From: Ruminiclostridium josui JCM 17888
Lineage (GTDB): Bacteria; Bacillota; Clostridia; Acetivibrionales; DSM-1351
Direction: 5' to 3'
NCBI RefSeq assembly: GCF_000526495.1
Contig: NZ_JAGE01000001.1
Span: 2,724,001 to 2,788,000 of the forward strand
Length of the DNA stretch: 64,000 nt
In this document: positions 34,735 through 41,248 of the stretch, one piece after another
Layout: each line of letters opens with the position of its first letter
Position numbering within the stretch: position 1 is the stretch's first letter
Position numbers and translations under genes: made by a program
The notes under the pieces: generated by a model
The model's database searches: none
Told to the model about the DNA's origin: nothing
What the model saw: the letters and a program-made list of their open reading frames with translations, nothing else

Positions 34735-35063
34735 ATGAGTAAGTATAACCTTAATTGGGATGAAAATAAATTAAAAAAATATATTAGCGAGGGACGGGGT
34801 CAAGGTGTAGGAAAAGACTACAAGCCATGGATTACTATACATGACTTCCCTTCTGACGGATTCAGCTCAAGGCAGCCTGGTTGGAAATCTAATCGGGTCT
34901 GCCATTTTTTGTCTAATAACGAGTTGAGATACTTCTATTTACTTGAATGGGCCGATGATGTAACAGATATACGAGAGCAATACCCCATGAATCTGGAGGA
35001 TACCATGAGGATTGCGGACAAGCTTGGTATTAAGCATCCGCAGAATAATAAGAACGATGTTCC
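34735..35063 (+). pseudogene. tnsA-like transposon endonuclease, 3'-truncated by an IS21-family element
   Basis: About 110 residues of the TnsA N-terminal region: GRGQGVGKDYKPWITIHDFPSDG (residues ~18-40, the family motif), VCHFLSNNELRYFYLLEW and DIREQYPMNLEDTMRIADKLGIKHPQ. The family's continuation, with the VMTTDF motif and the rest of the ~230-270 residues, is missing. The frame stops at 35088, 25 bp inside the IS21 end that starts at 35064. No second half is visible beyond 41231. TnsA is the strand-nicking partner of TnsB in Tn7-type transposons; TnsB, TnsC and TniQ are absent here. A relic of a Tn7-like element. Confidence 0.8.
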
Positions 35064-35174
35064 TGTCAATGACGGTGATAAAATGTAAGAAAACAGCGGT
35101 TAAATTTTGTATGTATATGGTGGTAACAAAATAACTTGTGATACACTTCAAATAAAACTTGGGGTGTACAAAGA

Positions 35175-36407
35175 ATGAAAGGAAACTACTGGATGGAAAT
35201 ACGAAATGATCGCAAGAAAGGATTATCTTACACAGAGATTGCAAGGAAATATCATATGGATCCACGTACTGCAAAGAAATATGCAGAATCAGATATAAAA
35301 CCTGTCTATCAGCTTACTGGTCCCAAACCTTCTAAATTAGACTCTTACAAGCACCAGATCGATTTATGGCTAGAAGAAGCACCATTTAGTGCAGTAAGAA
35401 TTCATGAAAAGCTTCTAGAACAAGGCTGTAACTGCAAATATACCATAGTCCGTGAGTATGTTTCATCAAAAAAACAGGACTTAAATCAAAAAGCCACTGT
35501 CCGATTTGAAACGATGCCTGGACTTCAGGGACAGGTTGACTGGGGATTCTTTGAAAACTATAAGGTACTGGAAAATGGAGAATATAAAAAGCTTTACTGT
35601 TTTCTCATGGTTTTAGGGTATTCTAGAATGAGATATATTGAATTTGTAACAGATATGAGTACTTCAACACTAATACGTTGTCATGTAAATGCTTTTCGAT
35701 ATTTTGGAGGATATCCTGAAGAAATATTATACGACAATATGAAACAAGTTGTTGTAAAGCGATTATTAAAACAAGCTGACAGTGAACTCAATAGACAGTT
35801 TGAAGATTTTGCAGGATTTTATGGATATAAGCCTGTTCTATGTAGACCATATCGCGGACAGACAAAAGGAAAAGTAGAACGAACCGTTGCATATGTTAGA
35901 GACAACTTTATGACAGGTATAAAATACGCTTCTCTCGATGACTTAAATGGACAGGCGTATGCATGGTGTAATAAGGTTAACAGCAAGGTTCATGGAACTA
36001 CCAATGAACGTCCTATTGATCGATTGAGAGATGAGATGTTATCTCCATTAAAAAGAGAATACATAATAGACAAAATTAATCTTCGAAGAGTTGAAAAAGA
36101 CTGCCTTATCAGCTATGCCGGTAATAAGTATTCTGTACCAGCAGAATATGTAGGCAAAGATGTGGCAGTCATTGTCCTTCAAAATATGTTAGCTGCATAT
36201 TTTCAAGGAAAACAAATATCAATTCATAAATTATCATACAGTAAAAACACCTTAAACGTCAACAAAGAACACTATAAAACAATGTTGGTTAAACAGAGTT
36301 TTGATATAGAAAACACACTTCTACATAATCCAGATATTGTAGATTTTCCATCTCCAAAACATTCTCTTAAACAGTATGATGAGCTGATGGGAGGAGTAAC
36401 ATTTTGA
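35175..36407 (+). CDS. istA: IS21-family transposase IstA
   Basis: 410 residues with an N-terminal helix-turn-helix ([21 protein letters not shown]) and a DDE core: Asp in QGQVDWGFF (~118), Asp in [11 protein letters not shown] (~190) and Glu in [13 protein letters not shown] (~243). The C-terminal part after about 300 is family-typical. Intact. Its stop TGA overlaps the TTG start of istB, the usual coupled arrangement. Confidence 0.95.
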
Positions 36408-37057
36408 GTGAACTAGCTTACGAAAGAATCAAGAACAACCTTGAAACATTAGGAATGAGAAATACACTTACGATTATTGATAATTACTTAGAGCAAGCCA
36501 TTCATGAAAAGAGAAATATCGTCGATATCTTAGATCATATTTTCACAGAAGAAGCCAAGTCAAAGAAATCAAGAGCTGTGGAAAATCAAATTAAAATGTC
36601 AGGATTTCCATATAAAAAGACACTTGACATGTTTGACTTTGATTTTCAACCTAGCATTAACAGAGAGCAGATCATGGAACTTGCGACCATGCGCTTTGTG
36701 GAAAATAAAGAAAATGTTGTTTTTCTAGGTACTCCTGGTGTTGGCAAAACACATCTTGCTGTAGCACTTGGAATGATTGCTGCAGAGCATAGATATTCCA
36801 CTTATTATATTAACTGCCATAACTTAATTACGCAGTTGAACAAAGCCCATTATGAAAATAGACTTCAGGAACGATTGAAGAACTTTGCCAAATACAAGGT
36901 ACTAATCATTGATGAAATTGGATATCTTCCAATGGATATTCAAGGTGCAAACTTATTTTTTCAATTAATAGCCAAACGATATGAAAGAAATACAACCATA
37001 TTTACTTCAAATAAAGCTTTTTCAGCATGGAATGAAGTATTCTCAGATATAACTATT
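36404..37057 (+). pseudogene. istB: IS21 helper ATPase IstB, N-terminal 218 residues (interrupted)
   Basis: IstB assists strand transfer by IstA. It has Walker A GTPGVGKTHLAVA (~108-120) and Walker B VLIIDEIGYLPMD (~167-179) in intact form. After SDITI (codon 218, ending at 37057) the frame runs into foreign DNA and stops at KKALGY. The true continuation ([20 protein letters not shown]...) is in frame at 41026-41166. TTG start overlapping the istA stop, as often in IS21. Confidence 0.92.
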
Positions 37058-37058
37058 A

Positions 37059-37955
37059 AAAAAGCTCTCGGGTATTAATAGTAAGGACGATATACGTCTA
37101 AAAAATGAAATAAAAAAATTAAGGAAAATAGATGTTGAAACAATTAAAAATAATGGAGATTGGGCGGTTTTTGGACTTATATCTGGAGCTGAAAAAAAGG
37201 GGAGCCAATTAGTAGTAGAATTGCCCCATCAAGTGAGACAAGCCTTAATAGATAACACTTTTTATACAACTCTTGATTTAATGATGCTTAAAGGTCTTGA
37301 AGGGAAATATGCAATTATTCTTTATGAAATGGCTATAAGGTATCAAAAAGCGCAAATACCAGAAATGACTATTGAAGAATTTAGAAAACTTACAGGAACA
37401 GAAAATAATTACAATGACTTTGGAGTATTGCGACATAAGGTTTTAACTCCTGCTCTTGAGGAAATCAACTCGGATAAAACGGATATAATACTGGACTATA
37501 CAACCACAAACAAAGGCAAGAAAACGATGACAATCAAGTTTTTTGTTAAACAAAAGCCAAAACCAAGGATAAAAGAAATATCAGCAGCCAGTGAGATTTT
37601 AGCAACAACAGAACAATTGACAATTGATGCTGTTATAGAGGTTGTTGAGCTAGAAGAAATAGCAAAAATCCTTAAACCTATAGAAGTGGATGCAGCCGAA
37701 CTTGTTAAAGTTATAAAGGCAAATGATATTGATTTGGAACTGCTACAACAATATGTTAATGTTATAAAAAACAACGAAAAAAACGTAGCTAAAAAAATAG
37801 GTACTCTGATTTATGCTTTCAAACACAAAATGACACCTGAAAGTGTTTCTGTTATGATTAAATCAAACAAAGATAAGCTTTCAAACAGGGATAATTTTGA
37901 GCAAAGGGAGTATTCTGACGAATACTGGAGTACATTCTTTACAAATAAGCCATAA
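37059..37955 (+). pseudogene. Rep_3-type plasmid replication initiator, without start codon
   Basis: The frame is open from 37053, inside the istB junction, to the stop at 37953-37955. Residues beginning SKDDIRLKNEIKKL and continuing through WAVFGLISGAEKKG to LMMLKGLEGKYAIILYEMAIRYQK, EEFRKLTGTENNYNDFGVLRHKVLTPALEEIN look like the winged-helix core of Rep_3 initiators. There is no ATG, GTG or TTG before TTG 37221, which would cut off ~45 residues of good coding sequence. So I read it as a 5'-truncated gene. The C-terminal ~100 residues are a less conserved, helical, valine- and glutamate-rich tail. Confidence 0.7.
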
Positions 37956-40258: not shown

Positions 40259-40559
40259 CTTTTAGACCTCCTATAATCTCTTTGCTGTTCCATGCTGCAC
40301 ATCCAATAAATGAAAGTAGCAGCCACACTGAAAAGATATTGAGAGATAAAACGTGCCGTATTGGTTCATAAAACCATAGGCATACAAATAAAAGAGAAAG
40401 TGTAATGTCAGCAGATATAATCCCTTTAAAAACTCCATCTTTGTACTGCCGCTTAATTGCTTGTATTTTATAAGCTATTTCCTCAAATGCCAACCTCAAA
40501 AGGAAGAATAAAGCTAAAAGAAGGGCAATAGATACCAGGCTTATATCACATAACACCAT
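40248..40559 (-). CDS. Membrane protein of the plasmid-like insert (~103 aa)
   Basis: Three hydrophobic segments are visible ([34 protein letters not shown] and IFSVWLLLSFIGCAAW). I place the start at ATG 40559; an upstream in-frame ATG (40625) would add a polar stretch overlapping the preceding gene. It overlaps the preceding gene by 19 bp and the following one by 11 bp, so the three are translationally coupled. Family unknown. Confidence 0.55.
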   Translation of the reverse strand: MVLCDISLVSIALLLALFFLLRLAFEEIAYKIQAIKRQYKDGVFKGIISADITLSLLFVCLWFYEPIRHVLSLNIFSVWLLLSFIGCAAWNSKEIIGGLKDGY

Positions 40560-41002
40560 ACTACCGACAACTTCCAATGCTCGTTTATCAGTGTGGCAGC
40601 TCCTATGTAAATTCGCTTGGACCATAAAGCGACACCCTTGATATTATTAAAGCGGTCTGGAAACCATTTCAATACCTCTGTAAACACACTACGTTTGTTA
40701 TAAGCCATTAAAAAGGCAAGGGTAATAGTAAAAAATATGCCGTTACCAATAAAAAGGCTTTTATATGCCATTTTAGAGCTTTTAGCCTGTTCTTCAATTT
40801 TTCGTGTCTTTTCTTGTTCCTTATACCGTTCATGTTCTTCCTTTCTAGCCTGCTGTAATACCCTTTCGGCTCGGTCTGCTTCTGCCTTTGCTTGTTTCCT
40901 TGCCATTTCAGCTTCTTTCAAAGCCTTATCGCTCAAACTCTTGGCTTCTGTAGCTTTTCTTAATAGCTCTTTGTTCTTGTGAGTAGAACATTTGTGTTCT
41001 GC
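40541..41002 (-). CDS. Coiled-coil protein with two membrane segments, start unclear
   Basis: The open frame runs from a TAG at plus 41005-41003 leftwards to 40541. Sensible coding sequence ([20 protein letters not shown]) lies before the first possible start TTG at 40936, and no ATG is seen, so the gene may be cut at the insert edge. The N-terminal half is a long charged coiled coil rich in Ala, Glu, Lys and Arg (~1-70). A membrane segment (~75-95) and a C-terminal part with [13 protein letters not shown] follow. Function unknown; similar proteins accompany plasmid mobilisation genes. Confidence 0.5.
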
Positions 41003-41025
41003 CTAACGGCGAGTGTATGAAGCAT

Positions 41026-41166
41026 GCCTCCGCTATTCTTGACAGAATTCTACATCATTGTCAAGTTGTAAGTATTAAAGGTGAAAGTTATCGTCTAAAG
41101 GAACGAAAGGAGATGATGACAGGAAGTACCACAATGGTAAATACATTATTTAAGACTAAGGAATAA
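41026..41166 (+). pseudogene. istB: IS21 helper ATPase IstB, C-terminal 46 residues
   Basis: This in-frame fragment ([15 protein letters not shown], then [15 protein letters not shown] and a tail ending KTKE) is the conserved IstB C-terminus. With the 218 codons ending at 37057 it gives a 264-residue protein, normal for IstB. So the insert broke the gene without losing any codon. The stop TAA is at 41164-41166. Confidence 0.92.
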
Positions 41167-41248
41167 TTTTTTTGCCATAAAACAGCAAAATTTAAACGCT
41201 ATAAAATTACAAAATCGAAACGTCATTGACAATGGTAAAATAATAGAC

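Follow-up and report, generated by a model that had tools for sequence, protein, structure and literature searches.

An apparent plasmid fragment nested in an IS21 element beside glmS carries a conserved, riboswitch-like leader RNA

Introduction

Tn7-like transposons enter the chromosome at attTn7, behind glmS, and intact members carry tnsABCD between a glmS-proximal end with repeated TnsB-type sites and an inverted far end. IS21-family elements are recognised by istA, istB, terminal inverted repeats and a short target duplication. Bacterial non-homologous end joining (NHEJ) relies on Ku and LigD; a comparative study (PMC7719229) found that NHEJ is retained in some clostridial species and lost in others, and it cites Dupuy et al., 2019, whose title reports the acquisition of heterologous DNA by NHEJ. 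Translation-controlling riboswitches of Bacillota combine a complex conserved core with a switch between an anti-Shine-Dalgarno strand and the Shine-Dalgarno sequence (SD). Here we describe a locus of Ruminiclostridium josui JCM 17888 in which Tn7-like, IS21 and plasmid-derived DNA lie one inside the other, the innermost layer encoding a structured leader RNA. The window, that is, the whole stretch of 64,000 nucleotides that was analysed (G000:C1:2724001-2788000), belongs to a 4.47 Mb genome assembled in two contigs with a completeness score of 100%.

Results

An IS21 element split between neighbouring bases of istB

A nest of Tn7-like relic, IS21 element and insert is confirmed in the window, as read from the assembled contigs of this one strain (Table 1). 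The IS21 element spans 35064 to 41231, and both of its termini are formed by the same 11 bp, TGTCAATGACG. Elsewhere in the genome there are four complete, uninterrupted copies of this element, each of 2200 bp (L002-L005), and another copy that is 5′-truncated and likewise uninterrupted (copy number at least five). With 37058-41025 removed, the window copy is 100% identical to L002 across 2200 bp and differs from L003-L005 by 1-3 bases, and the join of GATATAACTATT to GCCTCCGCTATT is present unbroken in all four. The insert, which is single-copy in the genome, thus sits between neighbouring istB bases, with 0 bases lost, 0 duplicated and one ambiguous T at the junction. The initial annotation had proposed that the tnsA-like coding sequence stops at the left IS21 repeat, that istB is complete in pieces of 218 and 46 codons, and that 3968 bp separate them. 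Comparison with the uninterrupted copies bears this out: the pieces join in frame as in L002-L005, and the length is exact.

Table 1. Positions of the features described, numbered from the first base of the window.
Feature	Position	Strand	Remarks
glmS	29561..31387	+	608-aa ORF; 3′ end is the Tn7 attachment site; Tn7-like elements follow glmS in G006, G010 and G001
Tn7-like end, glmS-proximal	31411..31480	.	three AATAAAAAAGTNGTNGAATT-type repeats, probable TnsB sites; ~25 bp past glmS stop
IS256-family element in relic	31609..33065	-	boundaries from other genomic copies; transposase ORF 31767-33029
Two cargo ORFs of Tn7-like element	33307-33981, 33992-34408	-	same place in G006
tnsA, first 110 codons	34735..35063	+	truncated by IS21, whose left end TGTCAATGACG begins at 35064
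IS21-family element, left part	35064..37057	+	istA 35175-36407; istB codons 1-218, 36404-37057; Pfam rve, IstB_IS21
Insert in istB	37058..41025	.	3968 bp; plasmid-derived mosaic; without target duplication, transposase or integrase
rep fragment, Rep_3 initiator	37059..37955	+	Rep3_C 1.3e-13; Rep3_N matched from profile position 49
98-aa ORF, family around DUF6809	38004..38300	-	ORFs that follow other copies of the leader are 41-63% identical (aa)
Conserved structured leader RNA	38298..38522	-	225 nt; 17-sequence alignment, 37-sequence covariation, fold z; no Rfam match
Leader parts	38416-38522; 38328-38341; 38307-38315	-	four-helix 107-nt core; anti-SD; Shine-Dalgarno; also a downstream hairpin
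Probable sigma-A promoter	38530..38557	-	TTGCAA-16-TATAAT; 7 nt before predicted 5′ end GGGAAAATTAA
Leader RNA loci	38298-38557 (window, including promoter)	-	elsewhere: L007, L008, L061, L069-L074, L092-L098, L101-L130, L140-L151
Predicted secreted protein	38662-39069	+	paired with vanZ, also adjacent in G026
VanZ-family protein	39151-39729	+	VanZ 1.5e-25
HTH_17 protein	39830..40258	-	relative of gene directly before Rep_3 gene of pRGF00102
Two overlapping ORFs, 125 and 152 aa	40248..40999	-	no family; membrane-like by eye
IS21-family element, right part	41026..41231	+	istB codons 219-264, stop 41164-41166; right inverted repeat

A Tn7-like remnant behind glmS

The outermost layer is of Tn7 type. 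The tnsA stub shares 93% amino acid identity with the full-length TnsA of the related genome G006 and 89% with that of G010, and the elements of G006, G010 and G001 repeat the end behind glmS, inverted, at their other extremity. Across 33087-35064 the window is 78% identical to the intact G006 element by blastn (a tblastx comparison with relatives, dominated by sum statistics, was set aside). The start of tnsA lies about 60 bp after the glmS match in G010 and about 2 kb after it in G006, and the window resembles G006 once the IS256 copy is discounted. The G006 element is complete, with two minus-strand ORFs, tnsA, tnsB (two ORFs), tnsC, a TniQ/TnsD-like gene and a far inverted end (gene names assigned by eye from translations). 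The intact elements are flanked by 5-bp duplications (TACAT in G006, CATTG in G010).

When the strain's own genome was searched with the whole G006 element, the matches were the near end through tnsA codon 110 and a few short dispersed repeats; tnsB/C/D, the far end and tnsA past codon 110 are missing genome-wide. The Tn7-like sequence in the window is therefore best described as a relic, not an element, and not mobile. To the right of IS21 (41648-62256) lie a MutS-like ATPase gene and then a cluster of AMP-ligase, acyl-transferase and polyketide-synthase genes, for which ten further genomes of the genus offer no syntenic counterpart. The missing remainder and the non-syntenic DNA together argue that a deletion, or recombination between IS elements, followed or accompanied insertion. 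IS21 would thus mark the edge of a deletion rather than a plain interruption of tnsA: of the initial reading of a Tn7-type tnsA cut by IS21, the Tn7 type stands, and mere interruption gives way to loss of everything beyond.

Both flanks were read for five IS21 copies (L002-L005 and the one in the window), and no target duplication flanks any of them; members of the IS21 family would normally show one unless the copies had recombined. The missing duplications could reflect such later recombination, and they suit a loss of transposon DNA by exchange between IS21 copies.

The insert and its plasmid-like content

The Rep_3 initiator gene of the insert is cut exactly at the left junction and lacks about the first 48 Rep3_N profile positions. 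The HTH protein is 26% identical, over 100% of its length, to its counterpart in the plasmid pRGF00102, and the pair of secreted and VanZ-family proteins matches G026 at 67% and 51% amino acid identity. A Pfam search of the insert ORFs found no transposase, integrase or resolvase. The insert thus appears to be a fragment of an undescribed Rep_3-type plasmid, not a whole plasmid, because the N-terminal part of rep is missing at the left junction. A circularly permuted whole plasmid was rejected, as the N terminus of rep does not lie at the other end and the HTH and rep genes are oriented unlike those of pRGF00102. The initial reading of a plasmid-like segment accordingly survives as regards origin and fails as regards completeness; it had also passed over the leader RNA inside the insert.

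Searches for relatives returned little. A search of plasmid DNA with the insert gave one weak VanZ match. Rep had no near relative in phages, in 197 related genomes or among genome and viral contigs; for the 152-aa ORF and the HTH gene, plasmids, viral contigs and 391 genomes were searched with the same outcome. The vanZ and HTH genes converge, and between them lies a perfect 23-bp inverted repeat with a 10-nt loop (39769-39836), to judge by its form a bidirectional terminator.

How the insert may have entered istB

The sequence of events that we propose begins with the entry of a Tn7-like transposon into attTn7 behind glmS. An IS256 element would then have inserted in the transposon and an IS21-family element inside tnsA, and the transposon beyond IS21 would have been lost in a deletion next to the IS or when two IS21 copies recombined. 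In a recent last step, a linear piece of a Rep_3-type plasmid, 3968 bp long, would have been ligated into a double-strand break within istB, most likely through the genome's own Ku and ligase, and this piece would have delivered the DUF6809-like gene with its 225-nt leader RNA. The order Tn7-like element, IS21, insert, put forward in the initial annotation, is supported.

Filling of an istB break by a linear fragment with 0-1 base of homology is what NHEJ would give. The junctions are gap-free, with no duplication and at most one base of microhomology, and the genome has a Ku gene (197 bits), directly followed by an ORF for an ATP-dependent DNA ligase (named from its translation). Ku was found in 11/11 genomes of the genus and in 1/14 control genomes (B. 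subtilis only). On this anatomy and these enzymes, we infer capture by end joining as the best mechanism.

Other routes would leave different traces. A mobile element that inserts site-specifically without duplication, through a tyrosine or serine recombinase or an HUH/IS200-type enzyme acting in trans, would fit the precise ends and the missing target duplication, and a small palindrome, AGAACATTTGTGTTCT, lies near the right end of the insert. We nevertheless regard it as unlikely: the insert has no recombinase, transposase or integrase gene, its left end falls inside the rep frame, there is no terminal inverted repeat and a single base is common to the junctions, and no second copy with the same ends occurs in this genome or its relatives. 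Threading of a plasmid contig through the wrong place of the assembly comes to mind because IS21, present at least five times, is a usual site of misjoins. Chance and ordinary misassembly are poor explanations, though, because both junctions neighbour each other in an otherwise identical repeat; an artefact would need two independent chimaeras at neighbouring mid-istB bases, where plasmid and IS share no sequence, in an assembly of only two contigs with a 100% completeness score, and we give it very little credence. Least probable of all is Campbell-type homologous integration of a plasmid carrying a piece of istB. It would place a plasmid inside istB, but the junctions contradict it, since a single crossover leaves a duplicated istB segment and here one base is shared; rep, moreover, should then be whole in circular permutation, yet it is cut short, and the opposite end of the insert does not carry the missing N-terminal part.

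Several points weigh against capture by end joining and the order of events around it. The lack of duplication and the 1-base overlap also suit other kinds of illegitimate recombination. The nest rests on assembled sequence and on comparison with intact copies elsewhere rather than with an empty-site strain, and the searches above found neither a free plasmid nor a close plasmid relative of the insert that would fix donor and breakpoints. The order of IS21 insertion and deletion, finally, is tentative, as the IS21 copies lack target duplications.

A structured leader RNA with two alternative pairings

Upstream of the 98-aa ORF, the insert contains a leader RNA whose fold is far more stable than expected (38290-38560; z -7.7 vs shuffled sequence). 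A promoter-like sequence occurs at the corresponding place in the aligned leader copies. In these copies the 5′ end, GGGAAAATTAA, and the SD strand, GGAGGGAAA, are both complementary to the anti-SD strand, TTAATTTTCCCTCC. When the two alternative folds were computed for 14 copies, the one that masks the SD was more stable in all, by about 2-13 kcal/mol. The leader may thus act as a translational switch in which the 5′ end and the Shine-Dalgarno sequence compete for TTAATTTTCCCTCC.

Covariation supports the structure. Among 37 sequences, 93.7% of cells were paired and 19/26 pairs showed two-sided changes, with a covariation score of 0.476 vs 0.183 for shuffled and at most 0.095 for slid alignments; this alignment was fitted to the model and is biased towards the structure. 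The same compensatory changes were seen in an independent MAFFT alignment of 17 sequences. In addition, the core leaves a stretch single-stranded, CCUACACG and variants, that by its complementarity could pair with the downstream hairpin, CGUGUAGG, and this long-range pairing is preserved through lineage changes (CCUACACG/CGUGUAGG, CCAACACGU/AUGUGUUGG and CCGUACAA/UUGUACGG). Copies from the genus itself have a mismatch at one position, and those of G249 and G016, with one from G005, could form the pairing only with a bulge and do not rise above shuffled sequence. The four-helix core and the downstream hairpin, linked by this pairing, would be the probable sensor.

The leader is widespread and its neighbours vary. 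Searched with the insert DNA, related genomes show several matching sites (85-88% over 267 bp), and the adjoining ORF is less conserved (41-63% at the protein level). The 107-nt core model finds the RNA in 13/391 genomes of the class; in a phylum sample of 398 genomes it occurs in 3 besides the present one. A single genome has up to 8 copies. The genes behind the leader include DUF6809-like, Spo0E-like, SymE and serine recombinase (resolvase) genes, in many Bacillota; the phylum-sample RNAs L140-L151 fall mostly outside this gene survey. The 98-aa ORF of the window has no Pfam match of its own, other ORFs behind the same leader match DUF6809, and we infer that the ORF is regulated by the leader. 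At L128 (G005:C93:42817-42926) the gene behind the RNA encodes a serine recombinase, a hint that mobile elements make use of the leader. At L061:13718-14262 in G007, the leader and a DUF6809-like gene lie directly behind glmS, the Tn7-like site in other species of the genus.

Comparison with Rfam (4227 families) gave nothing near a curated threshold, with an E cut-off of 5 for the window and L093 and one of 0.05 for eleven distant loci. The weak hits, to miRNA and UTR families of eukaryotes and to other bacterial families, were far under threshold and were judged to be chance. We found no description in the literature of Spo0E, SymE or DUF6809 together with RNA motifs, and the main text of two large RNA-discovery papers mentions neither Spo0E nor SymE.

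Riboswitch or translational damper

The 5′ leader has a core whose structure is supported by covariation and an expression platform whose pairings exclude each other; in everything that could be tested it looks like a riboswitch, with a putative ligand. Structure, promoter and pairing are evident from comparison; the sensing of a signal would follow from them by analogy. We tentatively propose, at something less than an even chance, a new riboswitch class, in which the long-range-paired four-helix core masks or frees the SD of DUF6809-like, Spo0E-like, SymE and resolvase genes. Such switches would occur across Clostridia and in one or more lineages beyond, and they may all sense a single signal for cell-fate and mobile-element decisions. 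It is a real possibility, if one we would not bet on, that the leader senses no metabolite and is instead a constitutive translational damper, an RNA thermometer or the target of a protein or small RNA. The greater stability of the masked-SD fold in the 14 copies computed would agree with this, as would the want of a common metabolic theme among DUF6809, Spo0E-like, SymE and resolvase genes. On the other hand, the 107-nt core, its conserved junctions and the long-range pairing are more elaborate than a thermometer or damper requires, and the core is conserved across orders while the downstream genes differ. Two further considerations temper the proposal of a riboswitch: the core model also matches the antisense strand weakly, as expected for hairpins, and the regulatory role is argued from sequence comparison and computed folds.

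Neighbouring insertion sequence and repeats

The initial annotation placed an IS256 copy 1.7 kb away, and its transposase is indeed located 1.7 kb before tnsA. The element is flanked by an 8-bp target duplication, AGAATTTT (31601-31608 and 33066-33073), and is missing at the equivalent place in G006. To call the site a hotspot, as that annotation did, is fair insofar as two IS elements lie in the same relic, but tolerance of insertions is expected of a non-functional element beside attTn7. As for the polyketide-type cluster being Tn7 cargo, no far transposon end was found. Just right of IS21 (41251-41287), a short sequence beginning GAGGCTGTCGCAAAAC recurs at many places across genomes of the genus; it may be a terminator in dispersed copies, or what is left of a further insertion sequence.

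Discussion

Taken by itself, the nest is ordinary though tidy element decay with one unusual last step. It offers a clean, ordered example of how a transposon beside glmS decays, and the insert illustrates how plasmid DNA can turn chromosomal without a recombinase, with end joining as a testable explanation. Most novel in the locus, and deserving of follow-up, is the leader RNA: as a strongly covarying switch outside Rfam that precedes four kinds of gene, it is a defined target for ligand searches, and it provides a first handle on DUF6809. We consider the whole account, from decayed Tn7-like element through IS21 and an end-joined plasmid piece to a leader-RNA switch, to be reasonably probable.

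Compared with Tn7-like transposons at attTn7, the window shares TnsA and an end with repeated TnsB-type sites about 25 bp past the glmS stop. Intact relatives have tnsABCD and a far inverted end, whereas the relic has no far end and keeps, of these genes, only a tnsA stub. The second layer has the istA (rve), istB (IstB_IS21), TGTCAATGACG terminal repeats, 2200-bp length and multiple copies (at least five) of an IS21 family member; it differs in that the window istB is split by 3968 bp and in the lack of target duplications at the copies examined. With pRGF00102 (HG796814.1, a 4167-bp circular plasmid) the insert shares a Rep_3 initiator together with an HTH gene. In contrast to that plasmid, its rep is truncated, the relative orientation of the two genes is different, HTH identity is 26% and the DNA is integrated in the chromosome. 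As in bacterial capture by Ku and LigD, the junctions are gap-free with a one-base overlap, and Ku and an adjacent ligase are encoded; here, capture is deduced from anatomy only. Finally, the leader RNA differs from the translation-controlling riboswitches of Bacillota in matching none of the 4227 Rfam families, in that its ligand is putative and in the genes that it precedes (DUF6809, Spo0E-like, SymE and resolvase), but it has the same promoter, complex conserved core, long-range pairing, anti-SD/SD switch and variety of downstream genes.

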